From the NCBI GenBank assembly GCA_037178675.1, contig JAYMGJ010000280.1:32300-96299 (forward strand): a DNA stretch of 64,000 nucleotides, written 5' to 3'. How positions within the stretch are numbered: the stretch's first letter is position 1; each line of letters starts with the position of its first letter. Made by a program: the position numbers and the translations under genes. The notes beneath the pieces were generated by a model, which did no database searches, was not told the origin of the DNA, and was given only the letters and a program-made list of their open reading frames with translations. Source of the DNA: Scleroderma bovista (taxonomy: Eukaryota; Basidiomycota; Agaricomycetes; Boletales; Sclerodermataceae). This document shows positions 3,908 through 49,140 of this stretch, piece after piece.

Positions 3908-6900
3908 ATGGCAAAGTCCAAGATACAACCTGCTGGTAGCTCTACTCCGGTGGTTCATGTAACATGGCAGGCATTCAAATCAAGGAGGGGATCTATTGAT
4001 AAGATGGTGAAGGCAACGCCCCGAAAGAAGGCCCGTCATGGAAAAGCTCCTTCAAATGACACTCCGACCCAGTCAGCATCTATAGGATTAGAACAATCCC
4101 AACTGTTTCCAGATGATGGCCAGCCATACATTTCCATGGATGATCTTCCACCCCGAAAGAGAACAGGTGTGTCAAAGAATCAGGTGTGTGATTTATTCCG
4201 ATCCTGCACTTGCCATGTCCTCCTGAAGGCATAATAGGACAGTTACTTATTGGCATGGTTGCCATACAAGCAGAGGTACCTCCAGGTCCTTCTGGACATG
4301 GAGGCACCCCCTCACCCAAGGGTCTGCATGTTGTGTCAAGGAGATGGCACGTACAGATGCGCCGAATGCATCCACCGGCCCTTGCTCTGCAGTTCCTGTT
4401 GCAGAAAGGAACACAAGTTGCGGCCCTTCCACCGGGTGGACCAATGGAACGGTACATTCTTTGAGGAATCATCGTTACGACTGGTGAGTCATCAATTCTA
4501 CGTGGCATACAGCAACAACTCATTTAGAAGGCTGGGTTGGTGGTACACCTCGGCCATGGTGGGGATCCGTGTCCGAATGGCGGGATGGATGGTGAGGACA
4601 TTGCTGGTGATGTTGAGGATGAATGGGAGGATATTCAGGACCAACCAAGACCACATCATCTTTCTGGAGGAACGGACAGGTCTTGCCTAACTGTAGTGCA
4701 TAGATCTGGGGTACATTTTTGCGATGTGAGGTATTGTAACTGTCCAGATGCAGGAGCTTCGCATTTGCAGTTGGTCAAAGCAGGACTCTTCCCGGCAACT
4801 ACAAAGGAACCTAGGACTGTATTCACCTTCCAAGTATTGGATGACTTCATTATGGATAATGTGGAGTGCGGCACCTCTGCCATGAATTATTACAGCAAGC
4901 TTCGGCGAGTCACATCCAATGCATTTCCTGGCCTTGTACCGGTGAGTTCAAAGCATGATATTAAGGACCCGATGACACCACCAACACTGATCCAAGAACA
5001 GATACAGAGAGCTACTCAGGGTGTCGAGGATGTGGAGGCTGTTAAAGCTGTTAAAATGGCAAGGTTTTCATCCAGGATCTCCTGATCCCAAGAGGGGGGA
5101 ATTGGTGCTGTTCTGTCCGGCATGCCCACAACCAGGAGTAAACATTCCATCCAGTGAAGATGTAGACCTCTCGGAGTAAGTAATGTTTTATTTTTACTTG
5201 TACTTATTGAGCAGCTGCATGATATAGGTGGAAATATTCTAGGACCATCGTGATGGATGGAAACTTCAAGGCCGAGCATATGCGGCCAAAGAATTCAGCT
5301 AATGAAGTTTGGCTCATGGACGGAATGGGATTCATGGTTACAATGCCGCAATATAAGGATTATCTGGCCGGAACATTGAACCGGGTCGAGGTTTGTGATT
5401 GCACATGTTTACAATACGGTTCAGCATTGTAATGGAATTCACAGAAATCTGACTGTAGCAACCATCGAGCAGTAAACCAGGCAAATGCTAAAAGAAATCA
5501 GCTGGCATCTACTGGAATTGGCGGGTGTGCATGTGCGCGGCATGGATGCTTTGTACCCCATGCAATGGTTGACTTTCAGAAGGGAGAGCAGTATGTGCCG
5601 ACATGTTGCATGCATTCCACCCTAACAGGAAGATAGGCAGGTAAATATGGATTATGCTCTGGCACATGCCGTGCAACATGGGATGGATCCGCAACAAAAA
5701 GTCATAACCTTTTATGACATCAATTGCCAATACAGCAAAAACCTAAAGCGCCGGCTAGAAGCAAACAATTTTATATCCTTACCATGTGGGCTATGGATTC
5801 AACCTAGCATTGGGCTCTGGCATGTACATGGTCACAAGGCAGAATGTTTCACCCGATATGCTCCCAATTTCATTTCTGGTGTAGGCCGCGTCGATGGTGA
5901 AATTATGGAGACTCTCTGGTCCTCTCTTAACATCATTTCGCCATCGGCCCGCGGAATGGCAACGCCGCATAGACAGGAGCTGCTTGATTTTCAAATGAAT
6001 GACAACAACTTCTTAAAGATGGTGCGGATGCGTGAGTGGTATCACAATATCTTGCAGATTTTGGGTGAAGTATGCCGACGACATATTGCACAGCCATCGC
6101 CCTGAAAAGAAAATTGAAGAATGCTCAAGAGGCACTGATGTCCGCGGAAGGAGCATTTGCGGAGCTTGATACAAGGGTTCCGGTCGAGTTGCATGAGCTT
6201 TGGGCACAGCAAGAGAAATCGGCTTTGGAGAATAGGGTTACTGATCCAAAATCAATGGACATATTTGAGGTGCAGCTGGAAAAAGGTATTTACTTGCTTG
6301 GCTGATTTCAAACGAATTTGATGTATTATAATGACAGCTCAAACAACTAAGTCGATCGAAATGGATATTATAAGTAATCAGGGACCGGATGGTCGTATGC
6401 GTGGGGCAGCAACATGGATGGCAAGGGTATTGAAAGCCGAAGAATCACAAATTATTTTGGCCATAGATGTCCGCCACATTCATGCAAGGGCGACGGAAAC
6501 ACAAAGGTTGTCTATTGCCCGCCGGCAGGACCGCCTGCAGATGCAAATTGATCGGCTCTGTGAATCAGCTTCCCAATTTCTAGGCGAAGATTGGAATGAG
6601 GACATCTCGGATAATCTCATTTCCACAACGGACATCGATGAAGGTGATGGTGAAGATGTATTTTCAGACACATTCCACCCACAAGATCCCAACTACTCGG
6701 ATGCTGTGGTACTGCCCTTGCCGTCGTACCTGGGGATGCAGCAAGCCGATAGGTTGGGGCTTTTAACCATGGTGGATCAGGAGTTACGATTGAGGGAAGG
6801 TCAGGCCAACGATGCTCTACATGAACTAAGGGTTTCGCTGGCACACAAGGCAGTCATCTTCCGGACCGATGTCAGACATGCCGGGACATACAATATGACT

Positions 6901-18466: not shown

Positions 18467-18808
18467 GATGACGGTGGAAGAGAAGATGACTGTCAAACAA
18501 CGCAGTGACTCAGGGGCGCCCCTCTCAGCGTTTGTATGTAGCTTGTGTAATTTGTTGCCACAAAATGCGGTAACTCCCGGCAGTGGTCTTGTATTGCAAG
18601 ACTTGACATGCAACGATCAAGACTCGACACATTGCAAGCAAGCATCAAGACTCGATGCTCAATGTATTGCAATATACTGTTCATGCATCATGCATCATGT
18701 CTTAAACCACATCAATACACTATTGCAATAGTACGAGCGGTAAACCCGTAGTCAATCAAATAAACTATCTGCTACTCGGTGTGTCTTCGCTGTCATCTTG
18801 TACTTAGA
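18467..18808. other. Intergenic between broken gene and GST-B
   Basis: About 340 bp with short direct repeats of AAGACTCGAYRC and TGTATTGCAATA near 18600-18730. Part of the stretch is copied at 26.2-26.35 kb. No gene is seen. Confidence 0.4.
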
Positions 18809-19662
18809 TCACTCAGCCTGGAAAGTAACAGCTTTGTCGACAAACTCAGGCTGTCCAAAGAAGGCTTTGATCCTCTCATCAGATGCCACCTTCACATAGT
18901 GAGCGAAGACATGGGGGTAAGCTTCTCGCTCGGCAGCGCCGCACCAGGTCATACCACTGCGTTTCGTGCCAGCCGCAATGAAGACATCCGCAAGCGTGAT
19001 GCTATCATTAACCATTAATGCCGAAGGGCGCGTAGCAAGGTAGTCCTCGAGGAATTTAAGAGAGCGGACGACCCGCTGCAACCAGAATTCGTGTTGCTAT
19101 TCACGCCCAAACCAGGAACTTGCAAGTTAGATGATATAATCGAAGACATGATCAAGAAATCATACCTCAGAAGTGTATCCTGGAACCACTTTCACGATGA
19201 GGGCACCGTAGAACATCCCGCTGGGAAAAATGATCTCAGTTTCCGCGAAGTGGACCCACTGATCCACGAGGGTGGTTTCCTTGATGTTCCGACCCAGGAG
19301 CCCCGACTCAGGCACAAGAGAACTCACTGGTCGAGCATAACAGTCAGTACAGATCTACAAGTTTCTGATGATAACTCCCTACCATAGCGAGCGATGACTG
19401 CGCCTTCGAACAGGTTGAACCCATCAGTGCCTTCGAAAGCGGGAACTTTCGCCTGGGGAAACTTCTGAACAAAGTCTGGTTCCTTGTTCGTGACTCCGAA
19501 TTCAAATGGTGGGCTTTCAATCTCGAGTCCTGCGATGGCTGCTGCACTCAGAATCTAAAGCATCCCGTTCAGGAGTAACTACAACGTGACCGCATAGTGG
19601 CGACATACAGCTATGGTTTGCGCCGCCTGTGGGTGGCTGTAGAGCTTTCCTATCGGAGCCAT
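18809..19662 (-). CDS. eEF1B-gamma-type glutathione S-transferase, copy B
   Basis: Exons on the minus strand are 19662-19609, 19554-19383, 19326-19166 and 19096-18809, giving 224 residues. Introns of 54, 56 and 69 nt are GT-AG. The protein begins MAPIGKLYSHPQAAQTIA, then ILSAAAIAGLEIESPPFEFG, EGAVIARYVSSLVPESGLLG, DQWVHFAETEI, SLKFLEDYLATRPSALMVND and VFAHYVKVASDERIKAFFGQ. All expected segments are present without stops. As in copy A there is no EF1G domain. It is convergent with the broken gene and divergent from copy C across 1.1 kb. Copy A and this copy differ at many positions, so the duplication is not very recent. Confidence 0.85.
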
Positions 19663-20765
19663 ATTTGTGTGGACTGTGCCAGAGTCTTGAAGATTGGAGT
19701 GAAGGCGTGGGGTGAGTTGATGGAACGTTAGGCATTACACCGATCCCTGTTTTATACCAGTCCCAAGCAACCTCCAGTGCGCAGTTGCGGCGGAGTGATT
19801 CGCTATATTTGCAACCTGTATCTCCACTGGTCTCTGATGACCAAACCAGGGTCATGTGAGCCGCAACTGAGGGTTATCGTGCTGACTGATTGATCAAACT
19901 GACCTGCGTGTTAGTAATGCACAGCAGATGTCCATAATGTATGTGCAGGCGGGCCCCTTTTCCAAACCCCTGAGTGGCGTCATGGCTGACTGCGTTCCGG
20001 CTCTGAATTGCGCCCGCTGATATCGGCATAGTACTACATATCTCAGCTGAACCTTGGTGAGTTGTCACAATCCACCATACTTACATGTAAGTAATGTGAC
20101 CAGACTCGCCAACGACTGCACCTCAAGTCATAGAGCTGATGGTGGAGTATATCAGATTTATTCTTCGAAGGATAAAGTAGCTGGAGGGCCCAAGAATGTG
20201 CAATTATGAATTCAAGCTTACTTTGACCAACAGATATTAACTTTGATACCTACCTGACCATAATAGTCCTAACCGTAGCATCCCGGACCCGCGACCATGA
20301 TGGTGACTCCAGGTCCAATCATATCCGCGCTTTTGGCAGGCACGTGTATCCGCTATCTGGAATATTGGTGCTGCCTACTTAAAACGTGCACAGCAGACCA
20401 TTAGCGAACGCCACTCGGGGTTCAAACTCAATAAATTGCTGTGCGGGGACGCGATTTGTCACCCTAGTCGTCGATGGATCTAAGTATAAGTAAACGACTC
20501 AGCATCGGAGTGAGTGCAATTCGTTAACCGCAGCTATCTTAGCGCGCATTCGAATCAATACTACGGGGTCCAGTGGCTGTGCAAGTGGTGAGTTCTGACT
20601 CACTCAAATAATTCGGTTCATCAGCTTAGACGATGAGGACATATTGACTCACCGAGATCAGCGCTTTGAAGGTTGCTGGTGACCGGTATAAACAGGATGT
20701 GCCATCCCTGATATCACATCCCAACACTCACTTTGCACCCTCGGAAGAAGCAGACCCGCACAAAC
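19663..20765. other. 1.1 kb between divergent GST copies B and C
   Basis: No gene is recognised. Both ends resemble each other in inverted orientation (GCAACCTCCAGTGCGCAG near 19770 and the complement of GAAGGTTGCTGGTGACC near 20670), consistent with inverted promoters of the two GST copies. The middle is unique, without repeats that I can see. Confidence 0.4.
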
Positions 20766-21633
20766 ATGGCTCCAATCGGAAAGCTCTATGGTCACCCGCA
20801 GCAGCCATACACTATAGCTGTAGGTCGTCACAATGCGACCATATTGCAGCTACTCATAGAGCATGATATCTTAGATTCTGAGCGCAGCGGCCATCGCAGG
20901 ACTCGAAATCGAAAGCCCTCCATTTGAATTAGGAGTCACGAACAAGGATCCGGATTTCGTTCGTAAGTTTGCTATGGCGAAAATCCCCGCTTTCGAAGAC
21001 ATCGAGGGGTTCAAGATGATCGAAGGCGCGGCCATCGCTCGCTATGGTAGGAAGTTATTGCTAGAAACTTGTAGATTTGTACTGACCGTCACCACCCAAC
21101 CAGTAGGCTCTCTTGTTCCCGAGTCAGGACTCCTGGGTCGCAATGCCAAGGAAACTTCTCTCGTGGACCAGTGGGTCCACTTTGCGGAAACCGAAATCAT
21201 CTTGACCGTAATGACAATCTATTATGGCATTGTCGCGAAAATCCTCCCAGGATACACTACTGAGGTATGATTCAGTTTCCTTGATCACGTCTTGGTCGAC
21301 GTTCTCTGACATGTGACCGCTTGGCTTTGGCGCAAGCAGCAGCATGAATTCCACATGCAGCGCATCACTCGCTCCCTTTAGTTTCTCGAGGATTACCTTG
21401 CCACGTGCCCTAGTACAGGATTCATAGTCAATGACAGCATCACGCTGGCAGACCTCTTCGTTGCCGGTGCCACGATGTGCGCTGGCCGGACCGTCTGTGG
21501 TGCTGCTCAGCGTGACAATGCTTACCCCCACGTTTTCGCTCACCACGCAAGGGTGACATCTGATGAAAGGATCAAGGTTCTGTTTGGGCAGCCCGAGTTT
21601 ATCAACGAACCTCTTGCTGTCCAAGCTGAGTGA
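20766..21633 (+). pseudogene. eEF1B-gamma-type GST, copy C, one nonsense codon
   Basis: Exons are 20766-20819, 20875-21046, 21104-21264 and 21340-21633. The first three have the same lengths as in copies A and B (54, 172, 161). In the last exon the codon at 21379-21381 is TAG where copy A has CAG (TCCCTCCAGTTCCTCGAG), so a single C-to-T change ends the protein before most of the helical domain. The frame downstream is otherwise kept to the normal stop (VFAHHARVTSDERIK, then AVQAE). The gene therefore died recently, or the codon is read through. Everything before the stop looks functional. Confidence 0.8.
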
Positions 21634-22375
21634 TCTGTATGTAGTCAAAGTCTGTGAGAATAAATGCACCTTACAGGCATTTCGGACTTGATCCTGTGGA
21701 CGAACTAAACCTGATTCGCGTATGCTTCCATATCATCACTTCGTATAGACGGTCGTTTATACCAAACTAATGGGCCTGCTGAGTTTCCCAAGACGAATCG
21801 CTAGTTCCTCTGCACGAGGCGTAAGGCTCAAAGTTAGAAGGTCACAATGTAGGTTATCCGCGTCCGCGGATGTGGTGATTTTATGCTCCGATTCAATACA
21901 GCGAAGGGTCCACGGTGACGCGTTGCGAAAGTTACTCGTCAACACCGTTACCTGCCGTGCCAACAGCCTTGTACATTCTTGTGTACATTGCTTCCACCCC
22001 ACTCCTCCCCCACTCGAGGGCGCACCTGACTCGGATGCCATTTCAGTAGCCAAAATGAGTGATCAGCGTCATCTCGGACACTGAATTTTCCGTATCTCGT
22101 GAATCGAGAATGGTGACTTCTGTCACTGATAATCGTTTGTTGGCGACTTCGAATCGCTCAATCACCTCACCATGTTTCGTGCCGTCACTACCATAAGTAC
22201 TGATTCCAGGGGATCCACAAACCACCCTTTCCTTTCCCTCGCTCTCAAAACCCCAGGCAGACAGGGTGAACACAAGTCGGTTTCGCTCTCATAGTGTTAT
22301 CAGGTACTCAAAATGCAAACTTTGTGATACGTGAAAAAGCTGATTTTTCCGTCACTCGCCGCCGATCAAGATATC
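21634..22375. other. Upstream region of membrane protein/Hsp70 copy 1
   Basis: No gene is recognised. 21951-22290 is closely matched by 30241-30600 upstream of Hsp70 copy 2. This copy alone has an extra 60 bp at about 22291-22350 (with caaactttgtgatacgtg). 21770-21920 is also present as a fragment at 26520-26640. Confidence 0.5.
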
Positions 22376-23589
22376 ATGGCACTCTCCACAGGTAATGTGG
22401 TGCTTCCCACCAGTACAGCTGGAGGCGGGCTCTCTTCCAATCCAGTATCCCTCCCAACTAGTTCGGCAGCTCCTACCATTTCTGCGTCTCCTCGCTGATG
22501 AGCTCTTCTGTAGCGTCCTCAGAAGCCACCAGTTCGACATGCGCATCGAAGTTGGTACCAGATCCTTCAACAACATCATCCACAACGACTTGTACACAGC
22601 AAACATCAACACTCGTTGTAGCGACTATGGTGCCCCCTACTACGTCCCAGTTCGAACCTACATGTGGCGGGGTAGTTATTGTGACAATTTTTACATCTGT
22701 TACTCCTACCACAACGTCGTTGTCGATTGCACAAAGCTCCCCAAACCCGAACCCGTTCTGGAGCAACAAGGGAGCAGTCGCTGGGGTATTCACCGCCATT
22801 GGATTGATCGGCTTGGCGCTCGCCACATTACTCATCAATTTTGTCCGTCGACGCCGTCGGCGTGCCACTAAATCTGACAAGGAGATTGCAGCAGCAGCAG
22901 ACGTCGCCACTTTCGTTCCGCTTGACGATTCTTCTGAACGTGGCGGTGATGGTTATGGATTCTCTGATAAAAGCCATGGTATAGCCGAGATGCCACAGTC
23001 CGATCCTCACGCTACTGGTGGCGTGGTGGTGGGTGGTGGAACTGCTTTCGAGACCGGGAATAGAAAGGAAAGCGAGATCGATGCGCCAGATGTTGTAGTT
23101 GTCGGTGCTGGTAACTTAGCTCGTGGGCCGAGTACCCACACACCTTCCCATACCCCCACCGGTCCCATCGCCCAGGAATTATGCGACCCTACCACGGATA
23201 TTTCATGTCCACGTAGCGCGTTGACTGAAGGCCTTGTCCTCGAGCCTAGTACGGGCCTATCGGGTACTGGAGAAGTAGCTGTGGAAAACGACACTGGCAA
23301 TGCACAAGTCAATCTTAGGCCCTCCGAAGACACTCATCACATTCGCGAATCATCCGGTGATGGAGAACGCCCCTCTCTGGTGCAACCAGGATACGAGTCT
23401 GATGTAAGCACAGTCATTCTTGCACGATTGCTTGCTATGTACCTACAGCATACCCGAAGTTCATCAGCCCGCCGCTTCCTAATCCACAGGCCCCCATCCT
23501 TCAAGAAATGGAAGACTTTGACGGTGCCATTGCCATTGATCTTGGTACTACCTCTTCGTCTGTTGGTGTCTGGAAAGATGGTCGGGTAG
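22376..23589 (+). CDS. Ser/Thr-rich single-pass membrane protein, copy 1, overlapping Hsp70
   Basis: Exon 1 (22376-22391, MALSTA when spliced) joins at 22514 across a 122 nt GT-AG intron. The long exon then stays open past the Hsp70 start. The order is: Ser/Thr-rich, presumably O-glycosylated outer part; hydrophobic segment [20 protein letters not shown]; arginine stop-transfer RRRRRR; acidic, low-complexity inner part ([18 protein letters not shown]). No cleavable signal peptide is seen, so a type III N-out topology is likely. An intron starts at 23404 (GTAAGC). Using acceptor 23448 gives an alternative 3' end at 23589; using acceptor 23459 continues in frame into Hsp70. Many fungal mid2-like sensors have this architecture. 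Without splicing the frame opens at 22498. Confidence 0.68.
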
Positions 23590-25352
23590 AAATCATTGCC
23601 GACGAACAGGGTAACCGGTCAACACCATCATACGTCGCCTTCTTGGCTGAAGGGCGTCTGATTGGTCATGCGGCAAAGAAACAAGCCACAATGAACCCGC
23701 GCAATACCATCTTCGACGCAAAGCGTCTGATTGGTCGTCGCTATGCTGATCCAGACGTTCAAAGAGATATGGCTCGCTGGCCTTTTGCGGTGGTCGAGAA
23801 GGAGGGCTCTCCTCTCATCAAAGCGACCTACCTCGGGGTGGAAGAGACTTTCACACCCCAAGAAATATCTTCGATGGTCCTCAGTAGAATGAAGGAAATT
23901 GCTGAGGCCAAGCTTGGCAAGACTGTCAAAAAGGCTGTCATCACTGTCCCGGCCCACTTCAACGACTCCCAGCGTTCGGCTACCCAGGATGCTGGTACCA
24001 TCGCCGGTCTCCACGTTATCCAGCTTATCAACGAACCCACAGCTGCTGTTGCTGCTTACGGCCTCGACCGAAAATCAAATCTTGAAAAGAATGTCGTTAT
24101 TTTCGACCTTGGTGGAGGCACGCTTGATGTCTCTTTAGTCAACATGAAGGGTGGAGTCTTCGCTGTGAAAGCGACCGCTGGTGACCCTCATCTAGGTGGT
24201 GAGGACTTCGATAATGCACTCCTCGAGCACTTCAAGAACGAGTTCAAGCGGAAGCACAAACTTGATATTTCGCAGGATCCTCGTGCCCTCAGACGTCTGA
24301 GAGACGCCTGTGAGCGTGCCAAGTGCACCCTTTCTAGTGTCTCCCAAACGACTGTTGAAGTCGGTTCACTTTTCGAGGGTGTCGACTTCTCTGCTAGCAT
24401 TTCTCGTGACCGTTTTGAAGAGATCAATGCCACATTATTCCAGTCGACCCTCGAACCCGTGAAGAGGGTACTCAGTGACGCTAAAATACCCCGCGAGAAG
24501 GTTGATGATATTGTCCTTGTTGGGGGTTCCACTCGTATTCCGAAAATCCAAAGCGTCGTCTCCGGGTACTTTGGTGGGCGGCAGTTGAATAAGTTGGACA
24601 ACCCTGACAAGGCCGTCATCTCCGGTGCTACTATACAAGCTTCAATCCTCACTGGTCAGACTTCAGAAACGACCCAGGACATCGTTCTTCTGGATGTCAC
24701 CCCACTGTCACTTGGCGTGGCGTTGGTGGGTGATATTTTCGGCATCGTGATTCCTCGTAATACCCCCATCCCGACAACCAACTCAGAAGTGTTCACGACC
24801 GTCGAGGATAACCAAACCTCGGTCCTTTTCCCTGTGTATCAGGGTGAACGCATTGTCGAGTGCAGTAAAAATAACCACTATCTCGGTGAATTCTTGCTCA
24901 CTGGCGTCCCTCCCATGCCTCGTCATCAACCTCAGCTAGACACTACCTTTGATATTGACGCCAGCGGTCTCTTGAAGGCTTCCGCTCGGGAACGTACTTC
25001 TGGCAGCAGGGCATCAGTCACCATCACCAACTCTGTCGGTCGCTTGTCGGCAGCTGAGGTTGACCGGATGATGAAGGATGCTGAGCGGTTCAAACGAGTT
25101 GACAAAGAATTGGAGGCACGACAGCGAGCCAAGACAGAAGCCAAGTATGACCTTAAGTCGTATATTGGCCAAGTCAAGGGGAGGATCGCCTCACCCCAGA
25201 TTGGCATGAGACTCAGCCGCACAGCTAAGGAACGGATTGAAGCCAAACTGGCTCACGCTCTTGAGAAGTTTGAGAATGAAGATACGACAACCGATGAATT
25301 CAGGAAATTGCAGCTTGACATCACGCAGGCCTTGCAGGAGGCAGGAATCTGA
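23508..25352 (+). CDS. Hsp70 family chaperone, copy 1
   Basis: A 614-residue ATP-dependent chaperone read without introns from the ATG at 23508. The nucleotide-binding domain has [14 protein letters not shown] (canonical members have TYSC), [14 protein letters not shown] with the catalytic lysine, [29 protein letters not shown] and [14 protein letters not shown]. The linker [14 protein letters not shown] is normal, and the substrate domain has [20 protein letters not shown]. The helical lid ends QALQEAGI, without the GGMP repeats and EEVD of cytosolic SSA proteins. Upstream codons are open for 16 residues (from 23460) and can be spliced to the membrane protein at 22376, giving a 932-residue fusion. 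Expression as a separate protein from the internal ATG is the alternative. Confidence 0.93.
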
Positions 25353-25608
25353 TGGGATAATTGCACATTTATGTGATCATGTTTGTATTTCTACCTTGTA
25401 ACTCTTCAGCAGGTGTTTTGCTATGAATGTGAACGAATCTAGTCACCTACATAGAGTCGTCATTCACTTGTAACATCAATTACCTTCTTGCTCTCTTGTA
25501 TTCCCTTTGATCCCGCACTCCTTATGCTTCTTGGCCGATTACAATTCAGCACTTCTCTGCTATCTTCGCTTGATGCTCCATCATATACTATACATAGCTG
25601 TCGGATCT
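25353..25608. other. Hsp70 copy 1 3' flank
   Basis: Matches the 3' flank of copy 2 (33476-33729) almost base for base, so it lies within the duplicated block. Confidence 0.6.
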
Positions 25609-25975
25609 TCAATACCGATATAGCTTACAAACATGTGAAGTGTAATTTAGGTCATTGTGATTTACCTTCAGCACCCTTTTCACCTTCACCGACGATCTTT
25701 CCCTCAAGTTCGCTCTCCACTTGCTGTCGCAGTCCACTCCTATCAGGGACACGTACACGCCACGCTGTAGTATGACAGGGTACGACCCTATGGGGATCCC
25801 CTCTGCGCCGACATGGGCTTGGAGCTGAGTAGGATATGGTACAATGGAGGACTCTGGAAGGCCATTTGAAGGCTGAGAGTGGACAGTGAGTACTACCAAG
25901 GGACGAGCGTACGACGTGAACACCTGTACCCTAGGTGGACGCGCGTCCGGTGGTGGCAAGCGCAGGTACTAAAGC
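25609..25975 (-). pseudogene. CinA-N/MoCF-domain gene, C-terminal fragment
   Basis: The minus strand encodes PPPDARPPRVQVFTSYARPL, PESSIVPYPTQLQAHVGAEG and YVSLIGVDCDSKWR, which match the last two exons of the intact gene at 40969-42255. The rest of the gene is missing: at about 25976 the sequence switches abruptly to an unrelated duplicated fragment. Confidence 0.7.
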
Positions 25976-26645
25976 TTCAGTCCATCGAGCATGAGGATAC
26001 AAGGGGAGCAGGCAACTGTGCTGTGTTGAAGAAAGTGGCAGCATTGACGGTGTCGACTCGGATATTAAACGCAGTCAGCTCGTTTTCTGTCCAGTCGCTG
26101 CCAGATTTGGCGGATAGAACGATGCTCGCCATGATGATGGTGGAAGAAAGAACGAAGATGACGGTCAAATAACGCAGTGACTCGGGCCCCTCTCAGCATT
26201 TGTATGTAGTTTGTGTAACTTTGTTGCAACAAATGCGGTAACTCCCGGCGGTGGTCTTGTACAAGACTTGACATGCAACGTTTCAAGACTCGATGCTCGA
26301 TGTATTGCAATAATACGAGCGGTAAACCCGTAGTCAATCGAATATACTATCTGCCACTAGGTGCGTGTTCTCTGTCATCTCGTACTTAGATCACTCAGGC
26401 TGTCCAAAGAAGGCTTTGATCCTCTCATCAGATGCCACCTTCACACAGTGAGCGAAGACATGGGGGTAAGCTTCTCGCTCGGCAGCGCCGCACCAGGTCA
26501 TACCACTTGTATGGATAATGAGCCTGCTGAGTTTCCCAAGACGGATAGCTAGTTCCTCTGCGTGCCCATTAGAAGGTCTGCGGTGATTTTATGCTCCGAT
26601 TCAATACAGCGAAGGGTCCACGCGTGCATTTGCGTGGGCGCGTTA
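25976..26645. pseudogene. Chimeric remnant of three other loci
   Basis: 26000-26350 copies 18330-18770: on the minus strand MASIVLSAKSGSDWTENELT and LTAFNIRVDTVNAATFF, the N-terminus of the unnamed broken gene. 26380-26512 copies the 3' end of GST-B (18850-18960). 26516-26640 copies 21765-21930. Each junction is sharp, and all three pieces are too short to function. Confidence 0.65.
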
Positions 26646-30633: not shown

Positions 30634-31724
30634 ATGGCACTCTCCACAGGTAATGTGGTGACTCCCACCAGTACAGCTGGAGGCGGGCTTTCTTCCAATC
30701 CAGTATCCCTCCCAACTAGTTCGACAATTCCTACCATTTCTGCGTCTCCTTGCTGATGAGCTCTTCTGCAGCGTCCTCAGAAGCCACCAGTTCGACATGC
30801 GCATCGAAGTTGGTACCGGATCCTTCAACAACATCATCCACAACGACTTGTACACAGCAAACATCAACACTCGTTGTAGCGACTATGGTGCCCCCTACTA
30901 CGTCCCAGTTCGAACCTACATGTGGCGGGGTAGTTATTGTGACAATTTTTGCATCTGTTACTCCTACCACAACGTCGTTGTCGATTGCACAAAGCTCCCC
31001 AAACCCGAACCCGTTCTGGAGCAACAAGGGAGCAGTCGCTGGGGTATTCACCGCCATTGGATTGATCGGCTTGGCGCTCGCCACATTACTCATCACTTTT
31101 GTCCGTCGACGCCGTCGGCGTGCCACTAAATCTGACAAGGAGATTGCAGCAGCAGCAGACGTCGCCACTTTCGTTCCGCTTGACGATTCTTCTGAACGTG
31201 GCGGTGATGGTTATGGATTCTCTGATAAAACCCATGGTATAGCCGAGATGCCACAGTCCGATCCTCACGCTACTGGTGGCGTGGTGGTGGGTGCAGCTCG
31301 TGGGCCGAGTACCCATGCACCTTCCCATACCCCCACCGGTCCCATCGCCCAGGAATTATGCAATCCTACTACAGATATTTCGTATCCACGTAGCGCGTTG
31401 ACCGAAGGCCTTGTCCTCGAGTCTACGGGCCTATCGGGTACTGGAGAAGTAGCTACAGCAAACAACACTGGCAATGTCGAATCATCCGGTGATGGAGGAC
31501 ACCCCTCACTGGTGCAGCCAGGATACGAGTCGGATGTAAGCACAGTCATTCTTGCACGATTGCTTGTTATGTACTTACAGCATACCCGAAGCCCATCAGC
31601 CCGCCGCTTCGTAATCCACAGATTCCCATCCTTCAAGAAATGGAAGATATCTTTGACGGTGCCATTGCCATCGATCTTGGGACTACCTCCTCGTCTGTTG
31701 GTGTCTGGAAAGATGGTCGGGTAG
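30634..31724 (+). CDS. Ser/Thr-rich single-pass membrane protein, copy 2, overlapping Hsp70
   Basis: It has the same structure as copy 1: exon 1 30634-30649, an intron of exactly 122 nt with a better acceptor (CTTCTGCAG), then the long exon from 30772. The transmembrane segment [20 protein letters not shown] and arginine cluster are identical. Relative to copy 1, 42 codons are missing in the inner, low-complexity part, and the indels preserve frame. An intron starts at 31536; acceptor 31591 (56 nt, as in copy 1) continues into Hsp70 through 16 codons, while the nearer acceptor gives the alternative end at 31724. Frame maintenance despite indels argues that the product is translated. Confidence 0.68.
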
Positions 31725-33475
31725 AAATTATTGCTGACGAACAGGGTAACCGGTCAACACCATCATACGTCGCCTTCTTGGCTGAAGGGCGTCTGATTGG
31801 TCATGCGGCAAAGAAACAAGCCGCAATGAACCCGCGCAACACCATCTTTGACGCAAAGCGTCTGATTGGTCGTCGCTATGCTGATCCAGACGTTCAAAGA
31901 GATATGGCTCGCTGGCCTTTTGCGGTGGTCGAGAAGGAGGGCTCTCCTCTCATCAAAGCGACCTACCTCGGGGTGGAAGAGACTTTCACACCCCAAGAAA
32001 TATCTTCGATGATCCTCAGTAGAATGAAGGAAATTGCTGAGGCCAAGCTTGGCAAGACTGTCAAAAAGGCTGTCATCACTGTCCCGGCCCACTTCAACGA
32101 CTCTCAGCGTTCGGCCACTCAGGATGCTGGTACCATCGCTGGTCTCCACGTTATCCAGCTTATCAACGAACCCACGGCTGCTGCTGCTGCTTACGACCTC
32201 GACCGAAAATCAGATGTTGAAAATAATGTCCTTATTTTTGATCTCGGTGGAGGAACTCTTGATGTATCTTTAGTCAACACGGAGGGTAGACTCGCTGTGA
32301 AAGCGACCGCTGGTGACCCTCATCTAGGTGGTGAGGACTTCGATAATGCACTTCTCGAGCACTTCAAGAACGAGTTTAAGCGGGAGCGTGGACTTGATAT
32401 TTCGCAGGATCCCCGTGCCCTCAGACGTCTGAGAGATGCCTGTGAGCGCGCCAAGTGCACGCTTTCTAGTGTCTCCCAAACGACTGTCGAAGTCAATTCA
32501 CTTTTCGAGGGTGTCGACTTCTCTGCTAGCATTTCTCGTGACCGTTTTGAAGAGATCAATGCCTCATTATTCAATTCTATCCTCGAACCCGTGAAGAGGG
32601 TACTTAAAGACGCCAAAATCCCCCCCGAGAAGGTTGATGGTATTGTGCTTGTTGGGGGTTCCACTCGTATTCCGAAAATCCAACGCCTCGTCTCCGGGTA
32701 CTTTGGTGGACGGCAGTTGAACAGATCGAACAACCCTGACGAGGCTGTCATCTCCGGTGCTACCATACGGGCTGCATTCCTCACTGGTCATGCTTCATTT
32801 CTGAAGCCTGTCCTTGATGTCGCTACACTGTCATATGGTGTGGCGACGGTGGGTGATATTTTCAGCGTCGTGATTCCTCGTAATACCCCCATCCCGACAA
32901 CTAAATCAGACGTGTTCACGACCGTTGAGGATAACCAAACCAAGGTCCTTTTCCGTGTGTATCAGGGCGAACGCACTGTTCAGTGCAGTAAACATAACTA
33001 CTTTCTCGGTAAATTCTCGCTCACCGGTGTCCCTCCCATGCCTCGTGGTGAACCTGAGCTAGACACTACCTTTGATATTAATGCCAGCAATATCTTGAAG
33101 GTCACTGCTCGGGACCGTACTTCTGGCAGCAAGGCATCAACCACCATCAGTGACGCTGTCGGTCGCTTGTCGGCAGCTGAGGTTGACCGGATGATGAAGG
33201 ATGCTGAGCGGTTCAAACGAAATGACAAAGAATTGGAGGCACGACAGCGAGCCAAGATGGATGCCAAGTACGACCTTAAGTCATATATTGGCCAAGTCAA
33301 GGAGAGGATCACCTCACCCCAGATTGGCATGAGGCTCAGCCGCACAGCTAAGGAACGGATTGAAGCCAAACTGGCTCACGCTCTTGAGAAGTTTGAGAAT
33401 GAAGATACGACAACCGACGAATTCAGGAAATTGAAGCTTGACATCACGCAGGCTTTGCAGGAGGCAGGAATCTGA
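31640..33475 (+). CDS. Hsp70 family chaperone, copy 2
   Basis: A 611-residue paralogue of the protein at 23508. The ATPase motifs are kept ([64 protein letters not shown]). The region around the interdomain linker has drifted: copy 1 DVTPLSLGV is DVATLSYGV here, which loses the proline and leucine used in allosteric coupling. The end QALQEAGI is identical and EEVD is absent. The fused model with the membrane protein would be 887 residues. Differences cluster in the substrate-binding half, so the two copies may be diverging in client choice or this one may be decaying. Confidence 0.92.
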   Translation: MEDIFDGAIAIDLGTTSSSVGVWKDGRVEIIADEQGNRSTPSYVAFLAEGRLIGHAAKKQAAMNPRNTIFDAKRLIGRRYADPDVQRDMARWPFAVVEKEGSPLIKATYLGVEETFTPQEISSMILSRMKEIAEAKLGKTVKKAVITVPAHFNDSQRSATQDAGTIAGLHVIQLINEPTAAAAAYDLDRKSDVENNVLIFDLGGGTLDVSLVNTEGRLAVKATAGDPHLGGEDFDNALLEHFKNEFKRERGLDISQDPRALRRLRDACERAKCTLSSVSQTTVEVNSLFEGVDFSASISRDRFEEINASLFNSILEPVKRVLKDAKIPPEKVDGIVLVGGSTRIPKIQRLVSGYFGGRQLNRSNNPDEAVISGATIRAAFLTGHASFLKPVLDVATLSYGVATVGDIFSVVIPRNTPIPTTKSDVFTTVEDNQTKVLFRVYQGERTVQCSKHNYFLGKFSLTGVPPMPRGEPELDTTFDINASNILKVTARDRTSGSKASTTISDAVGRLSAAEVDRMMKDAERFKRNDKELEARQRAKMDAKYDLKSYIGQVKERITSPQIGMRLSRTAKERIEAKLAHALEKFENEDTTTDEFRKLKLDITQALQEAGI

Positions 33476-33729
33476 TGAGACAATCGTGCATTTATGTGAT
33501 CATGTTTGTATTTCTACCTTGTAACTCTTCAGCAGGTGTTTTGCTATGAATGTGAACGAATCTAGTCACCTATATAGAGTCGTCATTCACTTGTAACATC
33601 AATTACCTTCTTGCTCTCTTGTATTCCCTTTGATCCCGCACTCCTTATGCTTCTTGGCCGATTACAATTCAGCACTTCTCTGCTATCTTCGCTTGATGCT
33701 CCATCATATACATAGCTGTCGGATCTTCA
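33476..33729. other. Hsp70 copy 2 3' flank
   Basis: Duplicate of 25353-25608. A shorter related piece (from cctttgattctgcattcctt) also precedes the intact MoCF gene at 40838-40968, showing that all three blocks share one ancestor. Confidence 0.6.
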
Positions 33730-34960
33730 ATACCGATATAACTTACAAACACGTGAAGTGTCATTCAGGCCATTGTGATTTACCTTCCGCACCCTTTCCA
33801 CTTCACCTACAATCTTTCCTCTCCACTTGCTGTCACAGTCCACTCCTATCAGGGACACGTACACACCACGTTGTAGGACAAGGTACGATCCTATGGGGAT
33901 CCCCTCTTCGCCGACACGGGCTTGGAGCTGAGTAAGATATGGTGCAATGGAGGACTCTGGAAGGCTATTTGAAGGATGAGAGGAGACAGTAAGGACTACC
34001 AAGGGACAAGCGTACGACGTGGACACCTGTACCCTGCGTGAGCGTGCGTTCGGTGGTGGTAAGCGCAGGTACTAAGGCTTTAGTCCATCGAGCATCTTAT
34101 GGAAGAGCGAGGGTATGCCGGGGAGGATGCATATTTTACCCTGCACGCGGACGACGGGCTATGTAGACCGGCCGGGAATCGGACGTTTTAACGTGCATCA
34201 CTGCAAGGGATGTCCGCATTTGTGTATTGCGCGGAGATGGATGTGTGGGGCATGCACGTTTGCGTTTGATGCACATGGGCGTACTATGTGGATAAGCTGT
34301 GGATATATCTGATTTGGAAGTGGCGCCAGTACTCACTGTATCCGACCTGACCAGCGAGATGCACCACTCAGAGATCGCCAGCCACAAACAGGACCTCGGC
34401 GCCTTCTGGGAAGAGCGCCATTCTCTTCTGTGCAGAGCGTTGTTCTTCGAGAGAGGGCCTGTTTTTTTGCTATGCTGTCCACGCGAGCCAGTGTTTTGAT
34501 ATGATAGACTAAGGGACGGTTAAAGGACTTGGCGACCGATGCGTAGTACGTGATTGTCTGGGGTTGATGAGATCGATCAGGGGCATGGAGGGGTTGTAGG
34601 TACCGTCGTGCGTGGGACCTATTCCCCCAGAGGTAACAACCAAGTCGTACTTGTCGACCATCGATCGTCGACTAGCCTCGATGATGCGGTCAGCGAGCGT
34701 ATCCTGCATCAAATGACGCAGAAGCATATGTTCACCTTCGTCTTCGAGGATGACTTCTATTCGTTTCCTGAGAAAACGTCATGATTCTGTGGGCTGTATG
34801 GAATACATCACGAACAGGTCTATATGACCGAGCTCGCAGCAGTATGTACTGTGCAAAGTAATTCGAGTTGCGGTCGAGCGTCTTTCCTTTCACCTCTTTG
34901 GTTGTGAGCGAGATAAATTGAGGGAAAGCAAGGGCACACACCCGATGACGAGGGAAATGG
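33730..34960 (-). pseudogene. CinA-N/MoCF-domain gene, full-length but broken
   Basis: The order of segments matches the intact gene at 40969-42255, including the DKYDLVVTSGGIGPTHDG motif (about 34620-34670) and the C-terminal YVSLIGVDCDSKWR. Several lesions are visible. The GDEILNGKT exon start is shortened (AGGTGAAAGGAAAGACG in place of the normal GATGAAATCCTGAACG region), a large central part after the TSGGIGPTHD exon is not open, and the 3' part is rearranged. It follows Hsp70 copy 2 tail to tail. Confidence 0.7.
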
Positions 34961-37884: not shown

Positions 37885-38880
37885 CTTGTAATCCGTTCTT
37901 GCTCTCTTGTACATATCCATCCCCTCTGCCGACACGAGTTTGAAGCTGAGTAAGATATGGTGCAACGGAGGACTCTGGAAGGCTATGTCGAAGGATGAGA
38001 GTGCACAGCACAGTGAGTACTACCAAGGGACGGGCGTACGGCGTGAACACCTGTACCCTGCGTGGGCGCGCGTCCGGTGGTGGCAAGGGCAGGTAAGGGG
38101 TTTCAGTCCATCGAACGTCTTCTGGAAGAGTGAGGGTATGCCAAGGAAGATGCATAGTTTACCTTGCACGACGGGCTGTGGGAATCAGGCGTTTTAGCGT
38201 GCCCATCGCAAGGGATGTCCGCATTTGTGCATTGCATGGAAACGGATGTGGGTCAACCACACGTTTGCGTTTGGTGCACATGCGGTATAAGCATGTGCGT
38301 ATGTAGATATATGCGATAATGTGGCGTTAGCACGCACCATATCCCACCTGGCCAGCGAGACGCACCGCTCGGAGATCGCCAGCCACAAACAGGACCTCGG
38401 CGCGCCATTTTCTTCCGTGCAGTGCGTTTTTCTTCGGTCTAGTGCGCGAAAGAGGGCCTGTTTTTGGATATGCTCTCCATGCGAACCAGTGCTTTGGTAT
38501 GATAGGCTAGTGGATGGTGGAAGGACTTGGCGATGGATGCGTAGTACGTGATGTCTGGGGCTGATGAACGGAGGTGTTGGACGTACCGTCGTGAATGGGA
38601 CCGGCTAACCCCGATGCTGATGTGATGTGATTTTCGGGGATGGCTTCTATTCGTTTCCTGAGAAAACATCATAGTTCTGTTGGCTGTGTGGAATCCGTCA
38701 CGAACAGACCTTATAATACCGAGTTCGGAGCAGTAGTACTGTGTAAAGTAATTCCAGTTGCGGTCGAGCGTCTTTCCGTTTAGGACCTCACCTCTTTGGT
38801 TGTGAGCGAGATAAATTGAGGAAAAGCAAGGGCACAAGCCCGATGACGAGGGCAATGGCCGAGGGGGCTCTTTGAGACGT
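37885..38880 (-). pseudogene. CinA-N/MoCF-domain gene, second broken copy
   Basis: VLNGKTLDRNWNYFTQYY (near 38770) and ITYYASIAKSFHHPL (near 38550) match the intact gene, but the exon with the TSGGIGPTHD motif has been deleted. The C-terminal exon survives (PDARPRRVQVFTPYARPLVV, PESSVAPYLTQLQTRVG) and then runs out of register. It lies between the two membrane-protein copies. Confidence 0.68.
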
Positions 38881-40540: not shown

Positions 40541-40968
40541 TTGGTTCTGACTTGGCGCTGTCTAGGCGGGTATGGCGCAGAGTTTGGTTGACCAGCCGTG
40601 GTGGACATTTTTCAGATTTGATAAAGGAACTCCGAGAATTGGTGGCGGATATTTACGAAGTGCGATTTGCTTGGATTACGTCAATTTTTCCCCGCCCCCG
40701 CTTCGGCGCCACCATGCATGTTGGGCCACCGAGCCGAGGAACAAGGAGCAAGACGGTTCCTGTCGTGGCTCTGCTTGTTTACTACATACTACGAGGCCAG
40801 AGATATGCTCGCCTGGGCGCCCCTAATCTGTGTGTTCCCTTTGATTCTGCATTCCTTATGTTGTTGGCCGTTTACTTCCCTGCTATCTTCGCTCGATGCT
40901 CCATCATATACTATACTCGTGTCAATATCGATATAACTTACAAATACGAGAAGAGTAATTTATGTAGG

Positions 40969-42255
40969 TCATTGTGATTTACCTTGCGCACCCTTTTCAC
41001 CTTCACCGACAATGTTCCCCTGGAGTTCCCTCTCCACTTCTGCAGCAATACTTGTGACCCGTTCGCGGTCCACACTTATCAGAGACACGTACACGCCACG
41101 TTGTAGGACAGGGTACGATCCTATGCGGATTCCCTCTACGCCGACACGGGCCTGTAGCCGAGTAAGGTATGGCGCAATGGAGGACTCTGGAAGACTATTC
41201 GAAAGATGAGAGTGGAGAGTAAGGAGCATCAAGGGACGAGCGTACGACGTGAACACCTGTACCCTACATGGGCGTGTGTCCGGTGGTGGCAAGGGCAGGT
41301 AAGGCTTCAGACCATCGAGCATCTTCTGGAAGAGCGAAGGTATGCCGGGGAAAATGCATAGTTTACCCTGCACGCGGACGACGGGCTAGACCGGCCGGGA
41401 ATCAGACGTTTTAGCGTGCATCACAAGGGATGTCACCGCATGTGTGGAGGTGGGGCATACACGTTTGCGGTTGATGCACATGCGCGTATGTGGATATATG
41501 CCATTCGGAAGTGGCGTCAGCACCCATTGTATCTGACCCGACCAGCGAGACGCACCACCCAGAGATCGCCAGCGACAAACAGGACCTCGGCACCTTCTGG
41601 GAAGAGCGCCATTCTCTTCTGTGCAGTGCGTTGTTCTTCAGTCTGGTGTGCGAGAGAGGGCCTATTTTTGGCTATGCTCTCCATGCGAGCCAGTGTTTCG
41701 GTATGATAGACCAAGGGGCGGTTGAATGACTTGGCGATGGATGCATACGTGATGTCTGGAGTTGATAAGATCGGCTCTCAGGGGCAGGGAGGGGGTGTAC
41801 GTACCGTCGTGGGTGGGACCTATGCCCCCAGAGGTGACGACCAAGTCGTACTTGTCGACCAATCGTCGACTGGCTTCGATACTGATACGGTCAGAAGGCG
41901 TAGTGCGCATCAAATGACGCAGAAGCATACATGTCGTTTTCGTCGTCGGGGATGACTTCTATTCGTTTCCTGAGAAGACATCACAGTTCTGTGGGGCTGT
42001 GTGGAATGCGTCACGAACAGGTCTATACCGAGCTCGAAGCAGTACTGTGCAAAGTAATTCGAGTTGCGGTCGAGCGTCTTTCCGTTCAGGATTTCATCTC
42101 TTCGGCTGTGAGGGAGACAAGTCGAGCGAGAGCAAGGGCACACACCCGATGATGAGGGCAGCGGCGGTCCTGATGTGGTGTCCTTGGTTCTTCGGGACGG
42201 GCGAGAGCGCCAGGGAGGACGCGGTGCGAGCGATAAGCCTGGCCTGGAGGGACAT
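40969..42255 (-). CDS. CinA-N/MoCF-domain protein, intact copy
   Basis: Exons on the minus strand are 42255-42146, 42099-42019, 41969-41931, 41881-41805, 41755-41556, 41385-41246 and 41194-40969; they total 291 codons (290 residues). All introns are GT-AG, 46-51 nt, except intron 5 (41386-41555), which is 170 nt. Conserved blocks are AALIIGDEILNGKTLDRNSN, LKRIEVIPDDEND, DLVVTSGGIGPTHDDITY, LWVPVVRVQGKLCIFPGIP and PESSIAPYLTRLQARVG. This is the COG1058 fold shared with CinA N-domains and MoaB/Mog, in which nucleotide or ADP-ribose pyrophosphatase activity is known for some members; the role here is inferred. The N-terminus MSLQARLIARTASSLALS resembles a mitochondrial presequence. It is the probable parent of three broken copies in the window. 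Confidence 0.87.
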
Positions 42256-42410: not shown

Positions 42411-43797
42411 ATGTTTCCCTTCCGTCCCATCGCCCCCGCGCCCCCGTCTCCGTCTCTCCCTGCACGCGACATGCCCAGCGACGTCTACGCTGCGTCGTGC
42501 AACCCTCCCCGCCGTGCAAAGCGTGTGCGCCCAGACGACTCTCCTCCGTACCCCCACCCCGTCCGCGAGTCGCCCTCTCCGTCCACAGACAACCCCGACG
42601 ACGTCCCCCAGCCCTCTCCCCCGAAGCGCCGGGGCCGCAAGCCTGGCACCCTGTCTCGTGCTGCACGCGAGGCACAGAGGAAAATCAATCACTCCCTCAT
42701 AGAAAAAGCCCGTCGCACAAAAATTAACGATGCGCTGGCTACGTTGCGCACACTCGTTCCCCCCCATTACAAACGTGCTTTCCTGGATGATCATCAAGAC
42801 GAGTCTGACGACGATCAAGATCCCACCAGCACCGGCATCAACAGGCCAAAACAGCAGAAATCAAAGGGCTCAGGGGAAAAAGAGTTCAAGTTGGAGATCC
42901 TCGTTCGCACCGTTGCCTATCTCCAAGACTTGACCGAGAGGGCCGAGAGCCTCGAGCGTGACGGGTGTCCACACTGCAGCAAGTCTATCTCGTCGTTGCG
43001 AGACGGCGGTCCTGCCAGGCGCACCGACGAGCCTGCCACTGCCCCGCCCCCATCCGCAGCACCCAAATTCACCTCCACCTCCCGTCTCCCTTCTATCTCG
43101 ACGTGGCTGCCCACCCTCACACCTTCCCAGTCGCCGTCATGTGATCTCACAGTCCCTTCCCCTTCTTCTCTTGGTGCACGCCCATCTGCCATCGGTGCCA
43201 ATATCCCGCCATCCCATCAATTACCCACCCCTCCCACGTCAGCAGCCTTCACGTCCTCCGCATCCACCGTCGTCGGCGTCCTTCCTGCCCTCACATTACC
43301 CTCCCCACGCACACTCCTCCCCGCTGGCCTCCACGGGCTTCTCCACTCGACCCCGGGCACACTCGGGACGAATGCCAATCCAAGGATTGCCATCGGTGGG
43401 AAGAAGACAACAACAACGGCTCCCCTGCCGCTTCACCCGTGTACACCCCTGACGATGAGACCGCAGCCTCGCTATTGTTGCGCATGAGCACGTCATCCAG
43501 TACGACGTCTCCCATCCTCCCGACATCGCCGCAATCCGGGATGAACAGGCTGCGCTCGTCATCGTCTGCGTCTCTCACGTCGATGTGGCTCAATCCGGCC
43601 ATGATGGATGCTGGCATGGGCTATGGCGGTGGCGGTGGCGGCGGTTCGTCACGGTCTGATGCGGAGTCAGGCCCGAGTGCGCGGTCTGCATTGACGCCTA
43701 GTCGGTTGTTGGGCTTGGCGACCAGGAGATCCGAGGTGAGTGATGCCCGTAACACGTTTGGTGGCATATCACCGACTCATCAATCTCACAGTAGGTA
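42411..43797 (+). CDS. bHLH transcription factor
   Basis: The start is ATG 42411 or, perhaps better, 42471 (MPSDVYAASCNPP). A Pro/Arg-rich nuclear-signal-like part (SPPKRRGRKPGTLSR) is followed by the basic region and helix 1, INHSLIEKARRTKINDALAT, with the HxxxExxRR residues that contact E-boxes. The loop is long and acidic (about 40 residues), and helix 2 is KLEILVRTVAYLQDL. The rest is Ser/Pro-rich with SRLPSISTWLPTL. The reading frame changes between about 43265 and 43400, by an unresolved intron or an indel, into the conserved-looking tail SPVYTPDDETAASLLLRMST. A final GT-AG intron at about 43735-43791 would bring in the stop. It is divergent from the MoCF gene. Confidence 0.83.
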
Positions 43798-46001: not shown

Positions 46002-47370
46002 ATGACAAGCAGTGAGTAAACTCTCAGCGGGTTGTCCTGTTCTACTAAAGTGCCATTGCTTTAAAGGATTCAGACAAATCCAAGCCCCCATCAACTCATT
46101 GCCCACTGAAATTGTGTGCGAGATACTGACAACTGCCATCGAAATGCCAGGCCTTGACCGTGGCTATGCACACCGTGATCGCAAACCCGAACTGGCCACT
46201 GTGTGTCGCCGTTGGAGAGATATCATTCTCAACCCTTTCTTGTGGACTTACATTGAGATATCACCCAGATGGTCAACGACGTCCTTGTTGAAGGTGCACG
46301 TAGAAAGGAGCCGCGAATGTCCCCTCGTTATCGGATGCCATGGTTTTGATTTGGAACCTGTGAGAGCAGAACGTTACAAAGCATTTGTGGACATATTGAT
46401 AGCCACCATGCATCGCTGGTGTAGCCTCACCATCACCAACAACTTTCACGGGTGCAGACTTATCACCGACAGATTGGGTTGCACTGTGTTTCCTTTACTT
46501 ACACGTCTTTTCATACCAGGCTATTGGCCGGATCCTCCCATATCCCTTTATCCAGAATATTTCCCCGCACTCAAACACTTGGAAATCTCCATTGAGGCAT
46601 TTACCCGAAATCACTTTCCATTCCCTCTCACTCTTGAGGAGCTCGCCATTCACGAATTCTGTGGTTGGACCTCTTGTTCCCTGCAATTCCTTTCATTCCA
46701 AAGACTGAAAGTACTTTCATTTCGTGGATACACGAAGGCGCAGGGGGAAATACAACCTGATAGCATTCATTTACCCCTCCTCACGCGCCTTTCATTTTGT
46801 GTCTCATATGCTGAACAACTCCTGCGCATCCTCTCAGCCCCGAGCCTCACTCATATTGACTATGAGCAGCAAAGTTACCAAACCTTATTCACGGCATTCA
46901 ATGGGATCCCGTCCAAGTGGACGAATGTCCATGAGCTGTGGCTTAAGCTTCTACCACCGGTTTATAACACCCGAGAAGACTACCATGTTGGCTTGCCAGC
47001 GTTCTGCCTCGCAGCTCCGGAGGTTCGGAGTATGGCAGTCATGGCACAAAACCTGAACAAGCTCCTTGATTGCCGACAGGGCGTATATCCTATAGATCAC
47101 TGGGTGCACCTTGAAAAGCTTACTGTCATTGGCAATGTTCTCCAGTTCAATAAGACCCTGCTGGGGAAATACATACTCCCGTGGCTCAAGCAGCGAAGGG
47201 ACATGGGGAAATCTGTGCTAAGGCTCAGCTTCTTGCTGATTGGTGACAAAGCTGAGTTCAAGAATATGATCGAGGATGTTGGTCAATATTGTGATGGGAT
47301 TGATCTGTGTATGGAGAGAGTAGACTGCCACCAGCAAATAGGAATACTAAGACAAATTACAAAACAGTAG
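46002..47370 (+). CDS. F-box protein
   Basis: A tiny first exon, 46002-46011 (ATG ACA AGC A), splices by a 55 nt GT-AG intron to 46067-47370, giving 437 residues. The F-box is at the start: INSLPTEIVCEILTTAIEMP, then LATVCRRWRDIILNPFLWTY. It would bind Skp1 in an SCF ubiquitin ligase. The rest has leucine-rich segments (FPALKHLEISIEAF, LKVLSFRGYTKAQ, LPLLTRLSFC, VHLEKLTVIGNVL), as in the large Agaricomycete F-box/LRR family, which would pick the substrate. No defects are seen. Without the first exon the frame opens only at a GTG, which supports the spliced start. Confidence 0.88.
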
Positions 47371-48950: not shown

Positions 48951-49140
48951 CTTTGTGTTCCACTCATTGGTTGGCGGGTATAATGGGATGGTCGTATCGT
49001 CATTGTCGATTCTCTCAGTGTCAGTCGTGTTGGAATCTGCAGCATTGAGCCTTTCGAATTGCACTCTTGAGCAGCAATGAAATATAGCATATTCGTGAAA
49101 AACCAAAAAAGCGTTACACTTTCCACTCCCACACACCGCT

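Follow-up and report, generated by a model that had tools for sequence, protein, structure and literature searches.

The described systems closest to the present locus are chimeric retrogenes and polycistronic loci. In Drosophila, jingwei arose from an Adh retrocopy joined to ymp, and the borrowing of promoter and exons from an upstream gene is a described route for retrogenes (PMC2413143). Chimeric retrogenes have also been described in rice (PMC6881317). Among the Agaricomycetes, Ganoderma lingzhi is reported to have 1272 polycistronic loci, with members also transcribed alone, and a mean distance of 434 bp is given in the same study (PMC11590231).

The locus analysed here lies in a stretch of 64,000 nucleotides (the window) from the Scleroderma bovista assembly, which comprises 51.8 Mb in 850 contigs. 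In this window, a gene for a membrane protein runs directly into a gene for an Hsp70, and the pair occurs twice in tandem (Table 1). The original prediction had proposed that splicing joins both genes in frame to a membrane-tethered chaperone, and the geometry on which it relied was found to be exact. The Hsp70 reading frame is whole-length (614 aa), and the membrane-protein frame (22498-23589) runs over its start, leaving no space for a terminator and a promoter between the two. A GTAAGC donor at 23404 and a CCGAAG ending at 23459 delimit a 56-nt intron in phase 0, and 16 open codons separate this acceptor from the Hsp70 ATG. The membrane-protein gene probably starts at 22376 with a 122-nt intron behind its short first exon, and given this exon structure the fused product would have 932 aa as calculated before. 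Copy 2 (30634-33475) shows the same join, with the donor at 31536, the acceptor at 31591, PISPPLRNPQIPILQE as the linker and a fused product that would have 887 aa, and the reported upstream difference of 42 codons between the copies was reproduced (exons of 302 vs 260 codons). The claim of a single transmembrane helix likewise agreed with the membrane part, which has one hydrophobic helix followed by RRRRRR.

Table 1. Features of the two tandem gene pairs (positions in the window; a slash marks the splice site in acceptor classes)
Feature	Position	Strand	Support or remark
Putative exon 1, membrane-protein gene (ATGGCACTCTCCACAG, MALST-)	22376-22391	+	In-phase join to 22514; likewise in copy 2
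Putative intron 1 (GTAATG...CTGTAG, 122 nt)	22392-22513	+	YAG acceptor; CTGAT 15 nt from 3' end in both copies
Main exon, single-pass membrane protein (Ser/Thr-rich N part, helix, RRRRRR, tail)	22514-23403	+	Homology, hydropathy
Candidate intron (GTAAGC...CCGAAG, 56 nt)	23404-23459	+	RAG/Y acceptor; no YTNAY in copy 1
Alternative candidate intron (86 nt, CCACAG/G)	23404-23489	+	Fuses too, 6 linker codons APILQE
16-codon linker	23460-23507	+	Last ~30 nt resemble SSB 5' leader in register
SSB-type Hsp70, intronless, 614 aa	23508-25352	+	PF00012, E 4.9e-207; 8 of 8 modelled SSB introns absent
Retained SSB 3'UTR homology	25377-25424	+	40 of 48 nt identical to the sequence behind the genomic SSB stop
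Copy 2 membrane-protein exons (30634-30649 and 30772-31535, 260 codons)	30634-31535	+
Copy 2 candidate 56-nt intron, counterpart of that in copy 1	31536-31591	+	CTTAC 14 nt from end
Copy 2 16-codon linker PISPPLRNPQIPILQE	31592-31639	+	16 of 25 nt match SSB leader
Copy 2 SSB-type Hsp70, 611 aa, diverged interdomain hinge	31640-33475	+

SSB is a cytosolic, ribosome-associated Hsp70. By its sequence, the Hsp70 of the window is a member of this subfamily, closer to SSB than to SSA or BiP. Its best solved relatives are SSB1 (9r9o and 7olc) and 5tky, which is named an uncharacterized protein, with Hsc70 behind them, and the names SSB or sks2 are frequent among the annotated fungal matches of ordinary length listed for it. 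Of the ordinary Hsp70 genes detected in the genome, an intron-bearing SSB on contig 98 comes closest (L035, 2043-4302; exon identity 59-78%). The model made here for this genomic SSB contains 8 introns, each 47-56 nt long and with YAG at its end, and its protein of 613 aa is ~94% identical to SSB of Lactarius psammicola, Mycena pura and Pisolithus orientalis. A generic cytosolic SSA-type Hsp70 was ruled out, since SSB was closer in the genome and structure comparisons, and a chance reading frame was ruled out by the Pfam score and by dN below dS. Searches with Rfam gave no match at gathering score, and viral contigs gave one pattern match with no confirmed relative.

All 8 modelled SSB introns are missing at their exact positions in both window copies. 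Together with the retained 3'UTR homology, this strongly suggests that the Hsp70 is a processed, cDNA-derived copy of a spliced SSB mRNA; acquisition of this copy from another fungus is possible. A poly-A tract or a target-site duplication was not seen by eye, including in the sequence after 25424, and the copy is old (dS 0.62).

A 5' remnant of the mRNA may also be present, less certainly than the 3'UTR. Adjoining the ATG, 17 of 25 nt in copy 1 match the SSB leader in register, which was reached by 4 of 20000 shuffles; in copy 2, 16 of 25 nt match, reached by 8 of 20000 shuffles. The placement in L035 is the single best one for copy 1, whereas that of copy 2 ties with one further site there (16/25). 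Counted per 10 nt upstream of the ATG, the matches are 6, 6 and 7 and then 3, 3 and 1, so that the similarity fades ~30 nt up, which would be the length of leader retained. The evidence depends on the fixed register, because the whole 60-nt leader, aligned locally with gaps, gave no significant match (equally good scores in 1155 and 1552 of 2000 shuffles). If the cDNA origin with a retained leader is correct, ~10 of the 16 linker codons would be former SSB 5'UTR. The linker shows no sign of constraint: the two copies differ there by 5 nonsynonymous changes and 1 synonymous change (p 0.81).

The product of the upstream gene is, judged by its hydropathy, a single-pass membrane protein. Hydropathy has its maximum of 2.32 at residue 95, the helix spans approximately residues 91-118 of the product, and 19-residue windows above 1.6 start in the membrane part only at 91-100, the others lying at 710-716 inside the Hsp70. 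Ser and Thr make up 38 of the first 90 residues, RRRRRR lies on the inner side of the helix, and no hydrophobic N-terminus was seen in the hydropathy profile; the topology would be N-out/C-in. Four relatives were matched among 7995 candidates scored. The main exon is 94% identical to P0001 over 86% and 35% identical to P0002 over 83%. The alignment with P0002 reaches base 23400, adjoining the donor, and P0002 then extends for a further 84 residues to an end in ...RVLRVANE; P0003, with a weaker alignment in the tail, ends in ...RVLKVANE. P0002, P0003 and P0004 from Rickenella mellea are fungal single-pass proteins with a Ser/Thr-rich N part that share with the window genes a transmembrane motif around GAVAGVF and a basic flank. 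Whereas P0002 and P0003 carry the VLRVANE or VLKVANE end, this type of C-terminus is absent from the window membrane genes, which have the SSB copy there instead. A tblastn search of the window with P0001-P0004 (E up to 1) detected nothing of the host C-terminus behind the Hsp70, and thus the SSB copy appears to occupy the place of the end of the host gene. Paralogs from the same genome (C40, C157 and C660) were too distant to serve as a guide to the exon structure of the membrane gene.

Five AG acceptors follow donor 23404 when introns of 40-120 nt are allowed: two fuse the frames, one leads to a stop and two continue in other frames. In each copy 2 of the 5 AGs open the Hsp70 frame, and this frame is in any case open upstream of the ATG for 35 codons in copy 1 and 49 codons in copy 2; the join is therefore weak evidence of a fusion. 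The acceptor at 23459 belongs to the class RAG/Y, and both it and its counterpart in copy 2 are given here as candidates only. RAG/Y acceptors are rare: of 2022 introns examined in the core genes of four species of Fusarium, they make up 2.18% (PMC5677156), a frequency that is only a guide here because Fusarium is an ascomycete. A YTNAY branch match is absent from the 56-nt intron in copy 1 and present as CTTAC in copy 2, compared with 7 of 8 genomic SSB introns that have it 10-16 nt from the end. The acceptor CACAG/G at 23489 is of the class YAG/R, fits the consensus better and also fuses the frames, leaving six linker codons only; the resulting 86-nt intron has in copy 1 CTAAT only 7 nt from the end and TTCAT at 26 nt. 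With a third acceptor, the YAG of CATCAG at 23467, the membrane protein would terminate at PAAS; in both copies the stop comes four codons later. From the proposed fusion, the open phase-0 join thus stands in both copies, whereas the use of the 56-nt intron, with its RAG/Y acceptor and no branch match in copy 1, does not follow from it. In the same way, the recurrence of the join in copy 2 was confirmed but lost its weight as an independent confirmation, because the copies are tandem duplicates.

Six sequences, the two window copies and P0005, P0006, P0012 and P0013 from ENA or JGI contigs, form one clade (support 100/100). All are full length (611-617 aa), and the latter four were taken as intronless because they are single gene calls. 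The tree was midpoint-rooted and did not place this retro clade next to the SSB of the same genome. As a reference, 92 ordinary rows were used (P0022-P0124 with 590-640 aa, minus P0024, plus the genomic SSB). Against these, the six clade members all carry a change at 36 of the 352 columns that are nearly invariant; copy 1 departs at 63 and copy 2 at 73 of the 352, compared with a median of 0 and a maximum of 16 in ordinary rows. Position 273, Arg in ordinary rows and presumably equivalent by alignment to the adenine-stacking Arg272 of Hsc70, is Cys in all six. In Hsc70, Arg272 is described as one of two arginines that sandwich the adenine (PMC5052559). The six members also have Ser in place of Tyr15, and P0013 has His in place of the Asp of DLGGGT. 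Judged from these replacements, the chaperone cycle of the clade may be altered.

The relatives also bear on the junction. In P0001 (94% to the membrane protein) the candidate intron is read through and FFKK forms the end, and P0005 and P0006 (96 and 94% to the Hsp70) start with MKEV. The window has AAGAAATGGAAG at the junction, where a change of G to A would give TGA after KK plus ATG-AA. The end of P0001 and the start of P0005 and P0006 both follow from one DNA string, AAATGAA, and would therefore reflect the same overlap. A relative thus very probably has the same overlap without spacing, the adjacency being deduced from proteins. Among the protein records compared, no related genome with the two genes apart came up. 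A separate case is the 748-aa P0024 from Lactifluus subvellereus. It is a diverged relative of SSB whose annotation includes ~140 additional N-terminal residues, repetitive and rich in Pro, Ser and Thr; SSB copies with N-terminal additions may recur.

The tandem copies are 98.1% identical over 22352-23035 and 91.3% over 23346-25992. A near-identical tract (22514-23035 and 30772-31293) has 4 differences in the first 176 codons, its flanks are ~6-9% diverged, and intron 1 differs at 8 of 122 positions. The tract probably stems from recent gene conversion, so that the first 176 membrane codons are uninformative on selection. Copy 2 (31640-33475) has lost 3 residues, and its interdomain hinge, PVLDVATLSYG, differs from that of copy 1, a feature common to P0012. 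Between the copies, dN is below dS in the Hsp70 (0.068 and 0.148, Fisher p 6.5e-6) and in the membrane part after codon 176 (0.075 and 0.20, p 0.013); for Hsp70 residues 300-600, dN was not significantly below dS (p 0.07). Versus the genomic SSB, dN/dS values are 0.145/0.619 and 0.160/0.665. The locus is probably not debris, given these dN and dS values of the Hsp70 and the membrane tail and the junction that a related genome from a metagenome apparently shares. Even if unfused, it would represent an old SSB retrogene retained under selection in an overlapping gene pair.

The 3' flank of the pairs was considered as a dispersed transposon (25430-26000), which was rejected, as it was found in at least 4 places including itself, all on this contig. 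It recurs at 25494-25992, 33617-34954, 37919-38567 and 40827-42158 as a local repeat cluster. Elsewhere, the window contains a KDZ transposase piece (PF18758, 9.8e-28, 5647-6102) with a CxC2 cysteine cluster (PF18803, 1e-23, 4585-5082) within 4585-6102, and an inverted pair at 18806-19672 and 20756-21636 (75% identical), which by eye we take to be glutathione-S-transferase-type genes. Further downstream are a bHLH transcription factor (42411-43484, PF00010, 2.8e-11), an F-box-like protein (46144-47367, PF12937, 2.6e-5, just over the cut-off) and a direct repeat of 2.35 kb (49136-51484 and 55475-57824, 96.7% identical).

With moderate confidence, the locus can be explained as a chimeric retrogene locus of the jingwei type, in which an SSB retrocopy was joined to a membrane gene and duplicated, forming one transcription unit. 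A spliced SSB mRNA would have been reverse-transcribed, and the cDNA would have kept ~30 nt of its 5' leader and the 3'UTR. It would have been joined, conceivably by insertion, to a gene for a single-pass membrane protein in its 3' part, replacing the C-terminal end and the terminator, and the joined locus would then have been duplicated in tandem. The SSB copy would be transcribed from the promoter of the membrane gene and ended by the SSB 3'UTR, as one unit. Joining of donor 23404 to 23459 or 23489 would lead to a membrane-tethered Ssb-like chaperone on the cytosolic face; without such splicing, the same transcript or an internal one would give the Hsp70 as a separate protein. A transcript shared by the membrane gene and the Hsp70 seems reasonably likely, given that retrocopies usually arrive without a promoter and that a terminator has no space here. 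For a separate production of the Hsp70, from the shared or its own transcript, the chances appear about even. A fusion protein as a main product is somewhat doubtful, and slightly more so is a membrane-tethered Ssb-type chaperone that has recruited its former 5'UTR as a linker, is under selection and was duplicated.

Among the alternatives, a bicistronic or overlapping arrangement is a strong rival to the fusion, though still a minority view, in which one mRNA is made, the membrane protein ends separately and the Hsp70 arises by reinitiation or from alternative transcripts. Three ends of the membrane protein are conceivable: PAAS if acceptor 23467 is used, the stop of the unspliced frame (23589) or, as the relative seems to have it, a TGA that overlaps the Hsp70 ATG. 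In eukaryotes, reinitiation after a long reading frame is usually inefficient, and the upstream frame here is long. The stop behind acceptor 23467 in both copies is nevertheless in line with a separate end, as are the reported prevalence of polycistronic loci in Agaricomycetes (PMC11590231) and the ends of P0001 and P0005/P0006, which fit an ATGA overlap. This overlap is, however, absent from both window copies, because the unspliced membrane frame runs past the Hsp70 ATG in each of them.

Two independent genes, with a promoter for a cytosolic Hsp70 inside the membrane-protein coding region, are a comparably modest prospect. Compact fungal genomes allow a promoter inside a neighbouring coding region, and the start context of the Hsp70, AGAAATGG, has the purine at -3 and the G at +4 of the context rule. 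Heat-shock elements were rejected as a sign of an own promoter, however, as they were not in excess in the window (12 one-mismatch matches vs 13.5 expected); one such match lies ~150 nt upstream of the Hsp70 ATG (23342-23354, minus strand). It also speaks against an own promoter that retrocopies usually carry none and that the junction has no intergenic space.

It is improbable that constitutive splicing of 23404-23459 makes the 932-aa membrane-tethered Hsp70 the main product. The canonical GTAAGC donor in phase 0, the equal join and length in both copies, the CTTAC of copy 2 at 14 nt from the acceptor and the fitting topology would agree with it. On the other hand, all 8 modelled SSB introns use YAG where this intron would use RAG/Y and lacks a branch match in copy 1, two other acceptors compete (23467, which leads to a stop, and 23489), and the linker is unconstrained. 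Moreover, no fused relative, that is, no match to the N part, was found at E <= 0.001 among 7992 candidates scored (0.55-1.75 times the fused length), where unspliced gene calls would miss a fusion. Finally, a decaying retropseudogene beside a truncated gene is very unlikely, as the 63 and 73 departures at near-invariant columns, the Cys at 273 and the loss of 3 hinge residues in copy 2 stand against six full-length clade members and dN well below dS versus the parent.

If the fusion is made, the chimeric retrogene locus would be a natural experiment in which a chaperone of the ribosome is relocated to a membrane; it would also be a fungal gene of the jingwei type whose splice site is still ambiguous. 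If the tethered reading is true, a chaperone with an altered nucleotide site would be held at the membrane. Among the titles and abstract openings covered, in a literature set with few subscription journals, none dealt with an Hsp70 retrogene fusion, and those listed for membrane-anchored Hsp70 all concerned animal, human or virus work.

Compared with Ssb1/Ssb2 (sks2), the window Hsp70 is similar in length (614 vs 613 in the genomic SSB), in having no EEVD end and in its best PDB matches, which are SSB1. Unlike them, it is intronless, sits on a long branch, shares with the other five clade members the 36 altered near-invariant positions and may have an N-terminal membrane anchor. With the polycistronic loci of Agaricomycetes it has in common a pair of coding genes that point the same way and are hardly spaced at all, but in the window one partner is a retrocopy and the frames overlap. 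Jingwei differs from the present locus, which is fungal, has a membrane protein as partner, seems to have its junction in the former 5'UTR and is known from its DNA only. By origin, the locus nevertheless resembles most closely the jingwei type of chimeric retrogene, a processed copy of a housekeeping gene that lies downstream of an unrelated gene able to give it a promoter and 5' exons, and that could be joined in frame to this host gene.
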